Shown here piece by piece: positions 38,374 to 45,770 of a DNA stretch of 64,000 bases. This DNA is from Vreelandella lionensis (GTDB taxonomy: Bacteria; Pseudomonadota; Gammaproteobacteria; Pseudomonadales; Halomonadaceae), in contig NZ_MWVI01000071.1 of NCBI RefSeq assembly GCF_002087295.1, positions 29,391 through 93,390 on the forward strand, given 5' to 3'. The number at the start of each line of letters is the position of its first letter. Position 1 is the first letter of the stretch. A program made the translations under genes and the position numbers. Under the pieces are notes generated by a model that was not told the DNA's origin, searched no databases, and saw only the letters and a program-made list of their open reading frames with translations.

Positions 38374-39320
38374 CTAACGACCGCCTCCTTTATAGGAAGC
38401 GGTCGCATTTCCACTTTCAAAACGTACTCGTAGGGAAGCAGCATGCTCTCGGACTAGTTCCAGCATGGCGGTCGCAGCTGCAGAAGGAGAGCCACGCGAG
38501 GGAGTAATAATGCCTAATGACCGCGGGACGTGGGGGGCCGTTAAAGGGCGCCAGCCAATGCCCTCCGCGGAAATCTGGCGAAAGCTGAGTGAAGGGAGCG
38601 CAGCCACCCCTAAACCTGCGGCCACCATCCGTCCGGCGGTGCCAATTTGGCTGACTTCACACATCAAATCCATTTCAAGGCTCAGCTCTTTTAAGACGCT
38701 CTCTATCGCAGCACGCGTGCTCGACAAGCGGCTCACGCCGATAATGGGGTAGCGCAGTAGCGCCTCCCAAGGCACGGTGTCCATCGCTAATAAGGGGTGC
38801 CCATCCGGACATACCGCGACAAAGTAGTCTTCTACGAGCGGCTCAAAATGGGTTGCTTCTGCGCGAAGCGGCTGTACCGATAGCCCAATATCGGCCCGGT
38901 GGTCACTCACCAAATCGCCCCCCGGGGAGCCAATACGTCGTGAACGCTGATGGCGATATTGGGAAATCGACGCCGATAGTCGGCGAGCACGGTTGGCAAA
39001 AATCCCGCCGCTAATGTCGGCAGCGCAGCGAGCGTTATTTTGCCTCTCTGTTTATTGTACAGCTCTCCCAGATCGCCCAGCGCCTCATCCCAATCGCCAA
39101 TTAGCCGTCTAGCCGTGGGCAGAAAGAATTTTCCTTCCGGAGTGAGCTGTACGCCTCGCGGCGAGCGATTAAACAGCACACCGCCAACACACTCCTCCAA
39201 TTTTCGAATAGCAATACTCAAGGCTGGCTGCGACATGTGCAGGCGCTCGGACGCTTCAACGAAGCTGCCGAACTCGGCAATCGCCACAAAGGCTTTTAGT
39301 TGTCGGATGGAAGGCTGCAT
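38374..39320 (-). CDS. LysR-family regulator divergent from the TRAP operon (frameshifted)
   Basis: The N-terminal helix-turn-helix reads FVAIAEFGSFVEASERLHMSQPALSIAIRKLEE, and the effector domain begins near residue 90. The frame breaks at a C/G run near 38920, within HDVLAPGG. The corrected protein has about 315 residues. It is divergent from the TAXI-TRAP/BKACE operon with about 130 bases between, so it most likely controls that operon. The spacer holds an AT palindrome (TATAATTATA, 39344-39353) that could be part of a LysR site or of a promoter. Confidence 0.82.
38378..38405. terminator. Bidirectional hairpin between preA and LysR
   Basis: CGACCGC at 38378-38384 pairs with GCGGTCG at 38399-38405, and the inner TCCT pairs with AGGA around TTAT, with one mismatch between the two stems. 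CATTT follows on the plus strand. It lies between convergent genes and overlaps the last codons of the LysR gene. Confidence 0.6.
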
Positions 39321-39450: not shown

Positions 39451-40424
39451 ATGTACTCACTAAAAACGCCGCTCTTAACCGCCATTCTCAGCGCTGGCTT
39501 AATCGCAGGCACGGCTGCTCAAGCAGAAGAGCAGCTGTTAATTGGCTCAACCTCTACATCGTCTAGCCAATACGGCTATTTCGTCGCCGTTGGGCAAATT
39601 ATTAATCAGCATGTGGACGGTGTGCGCACCTCGGTCGTAGAAACCGGTGCCACAGTGGACAACTTGCGCCGCATTTTAAGAAACCAGGTCGACATGGGCC
39701 TCGTCACCACGAACGTGGGCTATCACGCCTATGCGGGTGAGGGAGAGTTTGAAAGCCGCCCCGTCGATAACCGCCTGCTTTGGGTCTATTCCCAAGCACC
39801 ACAAAATGTCGTGATGCGCGAAGACTCTGGCGTGACCAGCATGGCGGAATTGGACGGTGCCCGCCTCAATCCTGGCATCACCGGCTCTGCCACAGAAGCA
39901 ACGACGATTGCCGTCATGGAGACGCTGGGCCTAACCCCTGAGTATGTGCGCGGCTCTACCACGGACGTGGTTGCCGGTGTAAAAGACAATCGCATGGCGG
40001 GGTACGTCAAATCTGGCGTAGGTGAAAACTGGATGGTTCCTCCATGGATATTGCAACGTTTACGCCGATCCAAGTGCTGTCGCTTAGCGATGAACAGGCT
40101 GAAACGCTGAATGAACAGATGCCTGATATTTCCGTGGTCAATATCCCCGAGGGAGCGGCGGATGGCCAGCCCGCCTACACGACCTGGAGCTTTGGCTTAG
40201 CGATGCACGCAAGCCCCGAACTTGATGAAGAAACGGCTTACCAAATTGTTAAAGCCGTGATGGAAAATCCCGAACCGCAGGTCAGTGCGCTCGCTAATCT
40301 CGCCGATGTTGATATCGCCGAACTCACCCTCAGCAGCGGAACAGTGCCTTTTCACCCTGGTGCCGCACGCTATTTTGAAGAGCAGGGATACGATATTCCT
40401 GACCGTCTGATGTCATCAGAATAA
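39451..40424 (+). CDS. TAXI-family TRAP solute-binding protein (frameshifted)
   Basis: A periplasmic binding protein with a signal peptide (AILSAGLIAGTAAQAEE). The TAXI fold begins with LLIGSTSTSSSQYGYFVAVGQIIN; the typical block DNLRRILRNQVDMGLVTTNVGYHAYAGEG and a C-terminal PFHPGAARYFEEQGY follow. It should deliver its ligand to the DctQM-type permease in the next gene. The frame breaks near 40035-40060. TAXI proteins often bind carboxylates such as glutamate or 2-oxo acids; the ligand here is unknown. It heads the operon that continues to 45770. Confidence 0.88.
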
Positions 40425-40442
40425 GGGAAGGAGCTCGGTTCC

Positions 40443-42319
40443 ATGCGCAATAAACTGCTCATGCTGGTCGCCCTGTTTTTGGGCGGCTTCATCTTCTACA
40501 CCTCAGCGGCTGGGCCTTTTGAAAGCTTGGTTCATCGCAGTCTGTTTCTTGCGCTGGTGATCGGGCTGGGGTTACTCACCTATCCCTTGGGCGCTGGTAA
40601 AACATGGCGCCCAGTAGGGGTGGTGATTGATTGTTTATTAGCCCTGGGGGCAATTACCGCCTGCCTGTTTATTACCTTCAACGCCAATAGCATTCTGACC
40701 ACGCTACCCTGGGCCACCCCCCAGGATATGGCGCTCACGGCCATTTTAGTGGTGTCTATTTTGGAAGTGGCCCGACGGGTATTGGATGGGTATTCCCGCT
40801 ACTAGTCACCATCGGTATCGCCTATGCCCTGCTGGGTGACCGACTGTCAGGCCCGCTCAGCCATCGAGGTTTTGATGCTAGTTTCGTGACAGAAACGCTG
40901 TTTCTCGGGGATTTAGGCGTATGGGGAATGCTACTCGGCGTAGCTGCCACTACCATTGCCGCGTTTGTACTCTTTGGCAGTCTCTTGCTCCACACAGGTG
41001 GCGGCCAGACCTTTATTGATCTTTCAATGCGCATCGGTGGGCGAAGCCAAGGAGGCGCCGCCAAAATCGCGACCGTGGCTTCCAGCCTATTTGCGATGGT
41101 GAGCGGAAGCGCGGTGGCTAACGTAGCCACCACGGGCAACTTCACCATTCCTATGATGAAACGGCTCAAATACCCACCGGCCTTTGCTGGCGGCGTTGAA
41201 GCGGTTGCATCTACCGGAGGCCAGATCGCGCCGCCGATTCTAGGCGCCGCAGCGTTTATCATGGCTGAGATACTCGGTGTCAGCTATGTCACCATTGCCT
41301 TAGCCGCCGTGTTACCCGCGTTCCTTTTCTATGTAGCGGTCTTTTTTACGCTGCACTTGGTCGCTGTGCGCAAAGCCTTACCGCTGGTCCCAGAGAGCGA
41401 GCTTCCCGCTTGGCCAGATGTGCTCCAATTTAAGCGGCTGACCCCGATTGTTGCCGCATTGGGTGGCTTGTTTGGTGGCGTTCTCAATGGCTACTCCATC
41501 CAATTCGCAGCTTTCTTGGGCATTACTTTGCTGCTTGTCAGTTATCTTTTCTTTGCCTTATTGGACCGAACGCCGCCCCGTCAAATCGTACGTTCGCTAC
41601 TGACGGGCCTGGAAGATGCTGGCAAGGGCATGGTCATTATTGGGGTGTTGCTCGCCGGGGCGCAGATTCTGGTGGCCATGCTCAACTTAACGGGCATTGG
41701 CGTCACGCTGTCGACGCTAGTGGTCAGTGTCGCTGGTGAGCAGGTGTTTCTAGTCGCGCTAATTGTCGCGGTCATCTGCTTGATTATGGGCATGGGCATT
41801 CCGACTACCGCGGCCTATGTGCTGGTCGCCGCCGTACTGGCTCCTGCACTGACCCGCATCGGTATCGAACCCTTGGTCGCCCATCTGTTCGTCTTCTATT
41901 TTGCGACGATATCGGTCATCACTCCGCCTGTGTGCATCGCGGTATTTGTTGCTGCGGGGATCGCCAAGGCGGGCTGGTTACAAGTCGCGGGGCACGCTAT
42001 CCGCTTGGGAGCCACCACCTACATTATTCCCTTCTTGATTCTGGCGTACCCCGCGCTTATCGGTTTAGGCGATGCCTGGGACATTACCTTAGCCGCCGCA
42101 CGTGCCATGGCCTTTGTTTTGGCTTTCGCGGGTATATTGGGGGGCGCTCGCCTTTTCGGCAACCGATGGCTGGATAGTGCGCTGCTGGCAACCACAGGGC
42201 TATTGGCGCTGGTGCCGAATATCGCACTTGGGTTAGTCGGCATTGCGGGACTGACGGGGCTCTATCTATGGGCCTGGCAATCCTCTCGACGTGTTGCACT
42301 GCAAGGAGCGGAGCTATGA
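40443..42319 (+). CDS. TRAP transporter fused permease, DctQM type (frameshifted)
   Basis: A membrane protein of about 625 residues with a small N-terminal DctQ-like part (four helices) joined to a large DctM-like part. Conserved blocks are GGAAKIATVASSLFAMVSGSAVANVATTGNFTIPMMKR, GGVEAVASTGGQIAPPILGAAAF and MGMGIPTTAAYVLVA. It is a Na+-coupled secondary transporter that works with the TAXI protein. The frame shifts near 40785, after EVARRVL. The stop overlaps the ATG of the next gene at 42316. Confidence 0.88.
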
Positions 42320-42336
42320 GTCATCAAGGAGTGAAC

Positions 42337-43245
42337 ATGACGAATATTGCGATGATTGGCTGTGGCACCATCGGCATTAGTTGGACCGCCTACTTTCTTT
42401 CTCGCGGTTTACATGTCACGGCTTTCGACCCGGATGCCACCGCCCGCGCCCAATTTACCCAGCGCGTGGCTGAAGATATGCGTGCCCTTGGTGCCGAGGC
42501 CCGCACGCCAGTGGTCGCGCAAACGCTGGCAGAGGCCTTAGAAGGCGTAGAGCTGATCGTCGAAAATGCGCCTGAATCCGTCTCGCTCAAGCAACAGCTC
42601 TTAGCAGATATTCAACAGGCAGCGCCTTCACAAGCGTTGGTGGTGAGCAGCACCTCCTCTTTAAAGCACTCTGATATCACTAAGGGTGCACCTGCGCCTG
42701 AGCGCATTATTATCGCGCACCCCTTCAATCCGCCCCACCTAGTCCCTCTGGTCGAACTCTACGGGCCAGACACTGAGCTGGTGCAGCGATTGGTCGATTT
42801 TTATCGGCGTATCGGTAAGCAGCCGGTGATGCTACGTAAAGAGATGATTGGCCATATTGCGAATCGACTCTCTTCGGCATTGTGGCGGGAAGCGCTCTAT
42901 CTATTACAGGAAGGCGTGGCCAGCGGGGAAGACATCGACCTGGCAGTAACGGCAGGCCCAGGGTTGCGGTGGGCCATTCAAGGGCCGTTCCTGACTTATC
43001 ATCTGGGCGGCGGCCAAGGGGGCATTCGCCACTACTTGGAACACCTCGGCCCTAGCCAGGAGTATCGCTGGGCTAGCTTAGGCCAACCGACCATGAACGA
43101 TGAGCTGTATGCGCAAGTGATCCATGGGGTTGAATCTGCGACGCAAGGCCAATCACTGCCTGACCTTTTTTCTGAACGAGATCGGCAGTTGACGGCTATT
43201 CAGCAAGCGCTGGCAATTAACGTAAAACAGGAGGAGACCTTATGA
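42337..43245 (+). CDS. 3-hydroxy-acid dehydrogenase, carnitine-dehydrogenase-like
   Basis: An intact NAD-dependent dehydrogenase of the 3-hydroxyacyl-CoA dehydrogenase fold. The Rossmann loop is IGCGTIGISWTAYFLSRG; ENAPESVSLK, SSTSSLKHSDI, AHPFNPPHLVPLVEL and MIGHIANRLSSALWREALYL match L-carnitine 3-dehydrogenase and relatives. It would oxidise a 3-hydroxy carboxylate to a 3-keto acid. ATG 42337 has AAGGAG five bases upstream; ATG 42316, overlapping the permease stop, is the alternative. The next gene encodes a beta-keto acid cleavage enzyme, the expected following step. Confidence 0.82.
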   Translation: MTNIAMIGCGTIGISWTAYFLSRGLHVTAFDPDATARAQFTQRVAEDMRALGAEARTPVVAQTLAEALEGVELIVENAPESVSLKQQLLADIQQAAPSQALVVSSTSSLKHSDITKGAPAPERIIIAHPFNPPHLVPLVELYGPDTELVQRLVDFYRRIGKQPVMLRKEMIGHIANRLSSALWREALYLLQEGVASGEDIDLAVTAGPGLRWAIQGPFLTYHLGGGQGGIRHYLEHLGPSQEYRWASLGQPTMNDELYAQVIHGVESATQGQSLPDLFSERDRQLTAIQQALAINVKQEETL

Positions 43246-44089
43246 GCCTCTCACCTTGTTTGCTAATGGTAGCCCCTAATGGGGCTCGGCGCGTCTACCA
43301 CGACCATCCCGCTATTCCTCTCACCCCTGAGGACTTGCAAGAGACGCACAAGAGTGCCTGGCAGCGGGCGCCTCCGCCATGCATGTGCATGTACGTGAAG
43401 CCGACGGGCGTCATTTACTGGATGCTGGTGCCTACCGAGATGCCATTAGCGCCATTAAGGAAACCGTAGGAGATCAATTACTTCTTCAAGTCACCAGCGA
43501 AGCAGGAGGGCGGTATTCCCCCTCAGAACAACGAGATGTGATGGAGGCATTGCAGCCAGGCTACGTGTCTATCGCGATGCGTGAATGGTTCGGTGATGCT
43601 CATGAGGTTCAAGCCAGTGGCGAGCTGTGCCGTTACCTGGCCAGCCGCGGAACACACATTCAATACATCGTTTATTCGCCTGAAGACCTCATTCACTTCA
43701 ATCATTTAAGAGAGCAAGGTGCTGTGCCTAATGGTCCGGCTTTCTTACTCTTCGTACTTGGGCGCTACGTTGACCCGCCCATTGCCGACCCAAGCCGTCT
43801 ACCCGGCTTTTTACAAGCATTAATGGCTGGTGACCATTGGGCAGTCTGTGCGTTTGGGCCAACCGAAGGTGATTGTTTAGCGCTGGCGGCCCAGCAAGGT
43901 GGTCATACCCGAGTCGGCTTTGAAAATAATCTATGGCGATCGGATGGCCAACTCGCCACCAACAATGCCGAGCTAGTCGCCGCGACTAAAGCTCGTATCG
44001 AAGCGACTGGACGCCGGGTGATGAATGCCTCCGAGGCACGCCGTTTTCTCGCCCTGACTACCGCTGCTAATACGGGGGTGACCTTATGA
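43242..44089 (+). CDS. Beta-keto acid cleavage enzyme, BKACE (DUF849), frameshifted
   Basis: BKACE enzymes use Zn2+ to react a beta-keto acid with acetyl-CoA, giving acetoacetate and a new acyl-CoA. The TIM-barrel start ('APNGARR') and the zinc motif AMHVHVRE are present; QVTSEAGGRYSPSEQRDVM, FGPTEGDCLALAAQQGGHTRVGFENN and the substrate-facing AFLLFVLGRY are further family blocks. The frame breaks near 43345, before the zinc motif. It overlaps both neighbours by ATGA. The pairing with a carnitine-dehydrogenase-like enzyme recalls dehydrocarnitine cleavage in Pseudomonas, but the substrate may differ. Confidence 0.86.
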
Positions 44090-45460
44090 CGGTCGTGGCA
44101 GGTTGTGGCGCGGGCTTCTCTGTTGTGATCGCACCGATGCGGCTAGGCCGCTGGTCGATGCCCTCATGTCTTATGATGCTCCTCGTGCGCTGATGTTTGA
44201 AACACTCGGGGAACGCACGCTGGCGGCTGCCCAGTTACGCCGGATCAAAGACCCGGACAGCGGTGATGAGCGGCTGCTGGAAGGTTTTTATCGCCCGTTC
44301 TGAGTGATTGCCTGGCTAACCATATTACGATTTTGGGTAACTTTGGCGCGGCGAATCCAACTGCCGCATGCCGTCGTATTCAGCAGTTGGATCAGCGCGT
44401 AGGCAACTCTCAAGCGTGCTTGGCCACTATTCATGGCGATGATGTTAGAGACCGCCTGCATGCCCTCGACTGGCAGGCTTGGGAGGGCTAAAAGCGGTCT
44501 ATTTCCGCACTAGAGCAAGTGGTCGCCGCCAATGTCTATCTGGGTGCCGATGCCTTAATCGAGGCCATGGCCCAAGGGGCTCAAGTCGTGATTACAGGGC
44601 GAGTGGCCGACCCCTCACTCGCGCTTGCCCCACTCTGTTATTACCACAGCTGGGCAGGCGATGATTGGGACAAACTAGCCGCCGGGGCCTTAGCAGGCCA
44701 TTTGATTGAGTGTGGCACGCAAGTGACCGGCGGTTACTTTGCTGATCCGGGAGTTAAAGAGGTCCCTGGCATGGCCTCCCTAGGCTATCCCCTGGTGGAG
44801 GTTGAGCGTAACGGGCGTCTGGTAGGGACCAAACCACCGGGTACGGGCGGTTTAGTCACCGAACAAACGTTCAAAGAGCAACTGCTATATGAAATACATA
44901 ACCCCGCCGCTTATATCACTCCCGATGTCGTCATTGATCTTGAGCACGTCCGGGTCAGGCAGCTTGCTAAAGATCGTGTTGAAGCCACCGGTGTACGCGG
45001 CAAGCCAGCGCCTGATCGTTTAAAAACCACTGTGAGCTTTCTAGATGGTTACCAAGGCGAAGCCGAGATTTCCTATGCGGGCCCTAATGCCTTCGCTAGA
45101 GCAAACCTGGCCAGAGAAACCCTGCGCCAGCGGCTGGCATTGCGCTGCCCCGCCAATCTGCGTGCACGCTTTGACTTAATTGGCATTTCCAGCGTTTTCG
45201 ATGGCGACTCACAGCTCACCGCTCAAACTTTGCAGGACGCCGCCAACGATATTCGCCTTCGCCTTGCCGTAGAGCATGCAGACAAAAGCGTGGTTGAGCT
45301 GGCAACACAGGAGTTATTGGCGCTCTATTGCTGTGGGCCAGCGGGAGGTGGCGGCGTACGACGCCACCATACACAACGCTTAAAAACAGCCTCGTATTTG
45401 GTACCCAGGCAACAAGTGGCCCCCGCCGTTACACTGCATGGAGGAGAGGGTAATGAGTGA
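44086..45460 (+). CDS. AtuA-like DUF1446 protein (several lesions)
   Basis: AtuA of Pseudomonas is needed for growth on acyclic terpenes; its reaction is unknown. The N-terminal GCGAGFSGDR pattern is recovered across the first break (near 44125). ILGNFGAANPTAACRRI, VYLGADALIEAMAQGAQVVITGRVADPSLALAP, GHLIECGTQVTGGYFADPG and GTGGLVTEQTFKEQLLYEIHNPAAYITPDVV are strong family blocks. A second break lies near 44300, and TAA at 44489-44491 appears to be in frame with the downstream part. The corrected length is about 455 residues. It overlaps BKACE at the start and the small protein at the end. Confidence 0.8.
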
Positions 45461-45770
45461 ACTATTGCACCGCTATGCCCATGCCCGGGCCGGCGATAAA
45501 GGCGACCGACTCAGCCTAGGGGTATTTGTGTATCAGGAGGATCACTACGCTTGGCTGGTTGAGCAACTTTCAGAGCCAAACGTTGCAGCGCTATTTGAGC
45601 ATCGGGGTGTGAGTCAGGTCACCCGCTATTTATTGCCTCATCTAAAAGGGGTGAACTTAGTGCTTGATGACGCGCTACAAGGTGGCGTCAATGGCGCTCT
45701 AAACTTGGATGGGCATGGTAAAACGCTATCGGCCTTATTGTTATCTATGCAGGTGACTCCTCCTGCTTAA
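45453..45770 (+). CDS. AtuA-associated ferredoxin-fold small protein
   Basis: A 105-residue protein starting at ATG 45453, with GGAGGAGAG upstream and overlapping the AtuA stop. It opens with YAHARAGDKGDRLSLGVF, the signature of the domain often fused to the C-terminus of AtuA/DUF1446 proteins, and also contains RYLLPHLKGVNLVLDDALQGG. Here the two domains are separate genes, as in many bacteria. The function is unknown; it probably forms a complex with AtuA. It is the last gene of the operon. Confidence 0.75.
   Translation: MSELLHRYAHARAGDKGDRLSLGVFVYQEDHYAWLVEQLSEPNVAALFEHRGVSQVTRYLLPHLKGVNLVLDDALQGGVNGALNLDGHGKTLSALLLSMQVTPPA

Follow-up and report, generated by a model that had tools for sequence, protein, structure and literature searches.

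The stretch of DNA analysed here (the window) comprises 64,000 nucleotides of Vreelandella lionensis (assembly GCF_002087295.1, contig NZ_MWVI01000071.1, positions 29,391 to 93,390 of the forward strand). It carries a seven-gene operon, six genes on the forward strand plus a divergent LysR gene, in which profile matches identified a TAXI binding protein, a fused TRAP permease, a dehydrogenase of the 3HCDH type (hereafter HAD), a BKACE, an AtuA and an AtuF. The genes and the state of their open reading frames (ORFs) are as follows.

38374..39320, minus strand: LysR-family regulator, divergent (PF00126/PF03466); frame broken in the window, two ORFs
39451..40424, plus strand: TAXI-family TRAP solute-binding protein (PF16868 above cut-off on both ORFs; TIGR02122); frame broken, two ORFs
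40443..42319, plus strand: fused DctQM-type TRAP permease (TIGR02123 TRAP_fused, 419.8 bits, and PF06808 on the larger ORF); frame broken, two ORFs
42316..43245, plus strand: NAD dehydrogenase of the 3-hydroxyacyl-CoA-dehydrogenase superfamily, HAD (PF02737/PF00725); intact
43242..44089, plus strand: BKACE-family (DUF849) protein of a non-canonical subgroup (PF05853 and the active-site signature of the subgroup); frame broken near the N-terminus
44086..45460, plus strand: AtuA-family protein, citramalate-lyase-A-like (PF07287); frames broken in the N-terminal third
45453..45770, plus strand: AtuF, the small AtuA partner (AtuA_ferredoxin, PF23544), citramalate-lyase-B-like; intact

No protein family in the operon is new, and a partial literature search, which is no proof of absence, did not find this combination of families described. 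Against TIGR02122 (cut-off 84.35), one piece of the broken TAXI gene scored 94.4 bits and the other 61.6, compared to 153.8 bits for an intact TAXI from a related locus (L174), and the permease passed the TIGR02123 cut-off of 320.65, identifying a TAXI-TRAP transporter. The HAD ORF opens at 42268, and its start was set at the overlap with the permease (42316). Family scans confirmed the gene content, the order, the divergent LysR and the TAXI-TRAP genes that an earlier note, made from the letters and their ORFs, had described for this locus. The four junctions at which that note saw start and stop codons shared are real overlaps: ATGA is common to permease/HAD, HAD/BKACE and BKACE/AtuA, while AtuA and AtuF overlap by 8 bases.

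Alignment with the operon of Vreelandella neptunia (88.2% DNA identity over 7.3 kb) placed small insertions or deletions in LysR, TAXI, permease, BKACE and AtuA, so that five of the seven genes are broken in the window and only HAD and AtuF are intact. The V. neptunia locus (L016) supplied intact orthologues of TAXI (324 aa, L016:6070-7044), permease (625 aa) and BKACE (282 aa, L016:9863-10711). The five frameshifted genes could mean that the operon is decaying and functionless in this organism. However, ORFs of at least 250 residues covered a fraction of 0.26-0.50 in each quarter of the window and 0.37 of a second contig from this assembly (3.6 Mb in 100 contigs, 80% complete), compared to 0.68-0.82 in nine loci from eight related genomes. 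Because frames are short window-wide and on a second contig and longer in relatives, the breaks look like an error throughout the assembly and not decay of the operon; decay of the operon alone was rejected, and with intact copies in relatives and HAD and AtuF intact here, we regard loss of function in this organism as highly improbable. Functional inferences were therefore drawn from the intact relatives, and any finding in window positions 1-64000 based on broken genes should be treated with suspicion.

With the window's BKACE as query, 275 Halomonadaceae genomes yielded 12 matches at E ≤ 1e-30. Eleven of these, the window included, were 62-100% identical and all keep LysR, TAXI, permease, HAD, BKACE, AtuA and then AtuF, the order being read as far as the contigs reach (L019 stops inside AtuA and L020 starts inside LysR). 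The twelfth match (G192, locus L089) was 37% identical and without the operon. The closest named relative returned by the scan was V. neptunia, with a BKACE 92% identical. LysR holds the same position in ten relatives (L016-L021, L085-L088), nine of them 76-91% identical to the LysR of L016. Outside the family, the seven genes are all present in Azospirillum oleiclasticum (L083), in a rearranged order: LysR divergent, then AtuA, AtuF, TAXI, permease, HAD and BKACE. The operon order is conserved far beyond chance. The earlier proposal of a conserved, catabolic-looking operon therefore holds, and the outcome that would have spoken against it, an order kept in no relative, was not what we found.

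When the same 275 genomes were searched with AtuA, 98 matches in 97 genomes were obtained (E ≤ 1e-60). Sorted by hand, nine full-length matches above 830 bits and three that are partial or broken (G000, G250, G083) are of the window's type; a second type accounts for 67 matches, scoring 675-715 bits, and the remaining 19 are other types or partial. We read the second type at 22 Halomonadaceae loci (L156-L158, L175-L193) and at one locus from another family (L163). All 23 have LysR (divergent), TAXI, permease, AtuA and AtuF, and neither HAD nor BKACE was found within the stretch. This core operon is commoner than the seven-gene form, and V. neptunia carries both. In one further genome (G060, locus L174), LysR, TAXI, permease and HAD are followed by AtuA and AtuF, and all that resembles BKACE between HAD and AtuA is a 31-codon piece similar to its start; this genome is not among the BKACE matches (E ≤ 1e-30) of the 275-genome search. 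A class-wide AtuA search gave matches in 14 of 369 genomes at E ≤ 1e-80, and the 11 stretches read contained one core operon (L163) and in no case HAD or BKACE. Because all 23 sister loci are without both genes and L174 is without BKACE, TRAP with AtuA/AtuF is the common core, to which HAD-BKACE looks to have been added as a cassette, with BKACE the part most easily lost. The earlier operon reading was borne out in genes and order, while the commoner sister operon had been missed.

Full and core operons also differ at individual residues. Positions separating the two perfectly numbered 7 of 457 in AtuA (9 full, 23 core), 7 in LysR, 15 in the permease and none in AtuF. The Azospirillum AtuA has the full-operon residue at none of its seven positions and so gives no hint of the substrate. 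In the TAXI protein, residue 40 is one of only three such positions (counted from 25 on, among those covered by every protein). PMC11574862 names Tyr45 and Gln93 as key ligand residues of the glutamate-type TAXI protein VcGluP. At the Tyr45 equivalent, which is residue 40, all 12 full-operon proteins, among them those of Azospirillum and L174, have Gln and all 23 core-operon proteins have His, and at the Gln93 equivalent all 35 have Thr; the mapping was checked with TtGluBP, whose Gln78 falls on the aligned column. The operon's protein shares the TAXI family with VcGluP and TtGluBP but has both key residues replaced, and on these residues we rejected a glutamate transporter.

The predicted AtuA structure matched chain A of PDB 9evf best and the predicted AtuF structure, matched separately, chain B of the same entry, which is named 'Citramalate lyase - ADP - pyruvate complex'. 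The predicted large subunit thus has the fold of CmlA (PDB 9erq/9evf) and the predicted small subunit that of 9evf chain B. In both systems one large protein is accompanied by one small protein of ~105 residues, and a profile alignment showed Gly-Arg-x-x-Asp-Pro and Tyr-Glu-x-x-Asp-Pro stretches common to both. Identity, in contrast, is 16% for AtuA against 9evf_A and 20-21% for AtuF against chain B, and the operon's seven genes include no glutamate-mutase or methylaspartate ammonia-lyase gene and add TRAP genes, HAD and BKACE. Sequence searches with AtuF against the PDB gave no credible match, and VIA-align returned no further close match for either model. From the fold matches of the models, we consider AtuA-AtuF likely to be a two-subunit C-C lyase of the citramalate-lyase type. 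A partial literature search found no paper on an AtuA-type citramalate lyase; PMC4682846 places DUF1446 downstream of methylaspartate ammonia-lyase. The earlier statement that AtuA and its partner are without known reaction is out of date, since both models match the chains of a citramalate lyase whose structure has been solved. The AtuA family (DUF1446) is very large, with at least 7,998 matches at E ≤ 1e-20; the names among the matches listed were 'acyclic terpene utilization AtuA family', 'DUF1446' and 'hypothetical'. With AtuA and its partner tied to a solved two-subunit lyase and standing beside their own transporter genes, the operon offers a direct test of the family's role.

We examined the BKACE-family protein by aligning 88 stretches of the family to KCE (2y7d) and dividing them by residue 231 into 76 with Asn, the relatives of the window's protein, and 12 with Asp. 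Since the split itself was made on residue 231, what follows is the signature of a subgroup and its columns are not independent; the broken BKACE of the window is not among the 88, and the readable residues of its ORF agree. All 76 members have Ile143, Gln141, Glu84, Glu111 and Asn231, with Arg14 in 74 and Arg110 in 71 (KCE numbering), whereas all 12 others have Glu143, Glu141, Gly84 and Asp231. The Zn ligands His46 and His48 are kept in 76/76 of the subgroup (10/12 and 12/12 of the others, respectively), Glu230 and Arg226 in 88/88, and Tyr145 in 76/76 of the subgroup but only 3/12 of the others. On a 39-row tree built from KCE and 38 of the aligned stretches, the two sets stood on separate 100/100 branches. 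In PMC11961710, E171 of Paracoccus BKACE15 (8rio/8rip) is reported to be the catalytic base, and E171L to be inactive; E171 corresponds to KCE 143 by way of Tyr173/Tyr145, which are named in PMC12871164. The subgroup thus resembles the canonical enzymes in its DUF849 family, Zn ligands, Arg226 and Tyr145, and departs from them by Ile in place of Glu143 (E171), Asn in place of Asp231, Gln in place of Glu141, Arg in place of Glu14 and the new Glu84 and Glu111. Neither the catalytic Glu (E143 of KCE) nor Asp231 is present.

Because Ile replaces the catalytic Glu and Asn replaces Asp231 in all 76, and L174 has lost BKACE and keeps HAD with AtuA/AtuF, canonical acetyl-CoA-dependent cleavage cannot be assumed for the subgroup on the strength of its sequences. 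The acetyl-CoA-dependent BKACE step of the earlier note is thereby called into question, and the active-site comparison that it had proposed as a check set the subgroup apart from the canonical enzymes, with the Zn ligands kept and the catalytic Glu replaced. In Pfam the subgroup scores as BKACE without the proven base, and carrying the canonical reaction over to its members may be wrong. The subgroup and the AtuA-AtuF link can both be tested and are useful beyond this operon.

We propose, tentatively and with slightly less than even confidence, that the operon imports a small hydroxylated carboxylate which AtuA-AtuF splits as a lyase, and that HAD and BKACE handle a secondary 3-hydroxy acid. 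TAXI-TRAP would bring in the small hydroxylated carboxylate. By its models, AtuA-AtuF would cleave R-C(OH)(R')-CH2-COO- to acetate and a ketone or keto acid, as citramalate is cleaved to pyruvate and acetate; such cleavage would need no prior oxidation and would suit tertiary alcohols. From a secondary 3-hydroxy acid, HAD would produce the 3-keto acid by oxidation, and the BKACE-family protein, with its rebuilt active site, would then cleave it. The best reading of HAD-BKACE is as a cassette attached to a module of TRAP and AtuA/AtuF, the binding protein having changed accordingly, and we prefer two branches acting in parallel on two related compounds over one compound processed in turn. Glu14 of KCE presumably binds the ammonium group of its substrate. 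Arg at this position points to a negatively charged distal group, such as that of 3-oxoglutarate, so that 3-hydroxyglutarate-like dicarboxylates would be the first candidates. A 3-hydroxy dicarboxylate is our best guess, and we give any named substrate much lower confidence than the overall reading. We agree with the earlier note in leaving the substrate open.

The surroundings of HAD and BKACE elsewhere bear on this proposal. A scan of genome contigs with BKACE gave 69 loci, in which neighbors were counted by tblastn placement, simple ORF calling being unreliable in GC-rich loci; 14 of the 69 were shorter than 12 kb, so the counts are lower bounds. Within 6 kb of the 63 loci outside Halomonadaceae, a class III aminotransferase stood at at least 38, TAXI at at least 30, both at at least 28 and HAD at at least 2. 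A phylum-wide search with HAD gave matches in 62 of 398 genomes at E ≤ 1e-70, and the BKACE subgroup was present in 3 of the 20 stretches fetched (L122-L141), namely L122, L126 and L127.

Several observations weigh against the proposal. HAD-BKACE occurs without AtuA in these three loci and in Methylobacterium sp. WSM2598 (L065), none of the 20 stretches around HAD matches in other genomes contained AtuA/AtuF, and AtuA was near only 2 of the 63 non-Halomonadaceae BKACE loci (within 6 kb; also a lower bound). Because HAD-BKACE stands without AtuA elsewhere and AtuA is rarely near BKACE outside Halomonadaceae, a joint HAD-BKACE and AtuA-AtuF pathway is not general. L174 keeps the operon without BKACE, or else its operon is decaying. 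A BKACE-family protein without the proven catalytic Glu may do something else. In place of Glu14, the 12 other BKACEs all have I, L, G, M or a gap; Glu14 marks KCE and not BKACEs at large, and the charge argument leans on KCE alone. For AtuA, identity to 9evf_A is low, a common fold fixes neither substrate nor activity, and the lyase label comes from the PDB entry.

The alternative closest to the earlier note is a linear route: a 3-hydroxy acid would enter through TRAP, its oxidation by HAD would give a 3-keto acid for acetyl-CoA-dependent cleavage by BKACE, and a side product would go to AtuA-AtuF. The retention of His46, His48, Glu230, Arg226 and Tyr145 in 76/76 fits this route, as does the placement of the subgroup in other taxa with class III aminotransferases or HAD, which would likewise make 3-keto acids, and the same dehydrogenase-BKACE logic appears in deoxyribonate catabolism according to PMC6365646. 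With the base that BKACE15 requires replaced by Ile and Asp231 by Asn throughout, and with L174 retaining HAD, AtuA and AtuF after losing BKACE, we consider it an unlikely but serious alternative. For a terpene (atu) pathway, with AtuA acting on terpene-derived CoA esters, the argument comes from AtuA family membership, the AtuA and AtuA_ferredoxin domains shared with acyclic terpene utilisation clusters, and four loci (L166, L168, L169, L172) where a fused AtuA-AtuF stands among apparent acyl-CoA dehydrogenase, enoyl-CoA hydratase, biotin carboxylase and carboxyltransferase genes, as judged from sequence starts, with four neighbours confirmed by Pfam in L168 and L169. The fused-type AtuAs, however, are only 31-35% identical, AtuA and AtuF are separate genes here, and no carboxylase, acyl-CoA dehydrogenase or hydratase gene lies among the operon's seven, the wider flanks not having been scanned by family. 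On the content of the seven genes we discarded an atu terpene cluster, and the chance that this pathway operates here is very slight.

Carnitine catabolism pairs a carnitine dehydrogenase with a BKACE, and the operon likewise has a dehydrogenase gene adjoining a BKACE-family gene. A variant of that pathway, with carnitine or another cationic 3-hydroxy acid as substrate, is favored by the best NCBIfam matches of HAD, which are carnitine dehydrogenases. These matches reached only 235 bits (NF005716, cut-off 592) and 229 bits (NF005471, cut-off 414), and HAD fell below every listed NCBIfam cut-off. Among HADs beside canonical BKACEs, in contrast, those of L141 (650) and L137 (439) pass the cut-off of 414, whereas that of L139 (368) fails. 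On the 39-row tree, which contained no BKACE with proven dehydrocarnitine activity, the operon's BKACE also lies outside the clade of those beside carnitine-dehydrogenase-type HADs (100/100), and it has Arg where KCE is taken to bind the ammonium group; AtuA/AtuF and TAXI-TRAP are extra. The cut-offs and the tree led us to reject a carnitine variant, to which we give a very low probability. The earlier description of a carnitine-dehydrogenase-like but distinct enzyme stands, and the grouping with dehydrocarnitine cleavage enzymes that it had named as refuting was not seen in the comparison made here.

Our proposal of two branches can be widened: one transporter would serve two 3-hydroxy-acid routes, AtuA-AtuF for tertiary alcohols and HAD with a new DUF849 class for secondary ones. 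This class would have dropped the BKACE base, moved catalysis to the invariant Glu84 and acquired an Arg pocket for dianionic 3-keto acids, and, fed by class III aminotransferases and TAXI-TRAP in Alphaproteobacteria, would form a widespread undescribed beta-amino/beta-hydroxy dicarboxylate route. That this wider scheme holds is, in our view, doubtful.

Other arrangements of the same families were seen. Non-canonical BKACE with a class III aminotransferase and TAXI-TRAP, mostly without HAD or AtuA, occurs at at least 28 of the 63 loci (L022-L084, e.g. L077) and is a separate operon type that we have not found described. At L127 (family scan) and L126 (clustering), HAD and non-canonical BKACE have as neighbours a class III aminotransferase, two proteins of the beta-lactamase family (PF00144), a binding protein (best NCBIfam match PotD, below cut-off) and a MOSC/flavin/ferredoxin protein. 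The window's genome has a second, canonical HAD and BKACE pair on contig C12 (L090:8113-10010), which we set aside as a different system: its BKACE passes 3,5-dioxohexanoate:acetyl-CoA acetone transferase (551.7 vs cut-off 430) and its HAD passes PRK06129 (428.3 vs 347). V. neptunia has a HAD and BKACE pair just downstream of the operon (about L016:14433-16307), whose BKACE groups with that of L090 on the tree.

AtuA and AtuF are likewise found in other company. At L159 and L160, LysR (divergent), AtuA and AtuF occur with a CitMHS-type carrier in place of TAXI-TRAP, and at L160 the opposite strand holds a thiolase and a CoA-transferase subunit. At L164:2438-7619, genes for an IlvD/Edd dehydratase and for two RraA-like proteins run divergently from AtuA-AtuF, which may point to a further pathway for branched hydroxy acids. 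None of these contexts fixes a substrate; together they suggest hydroxy-acid breakdown.

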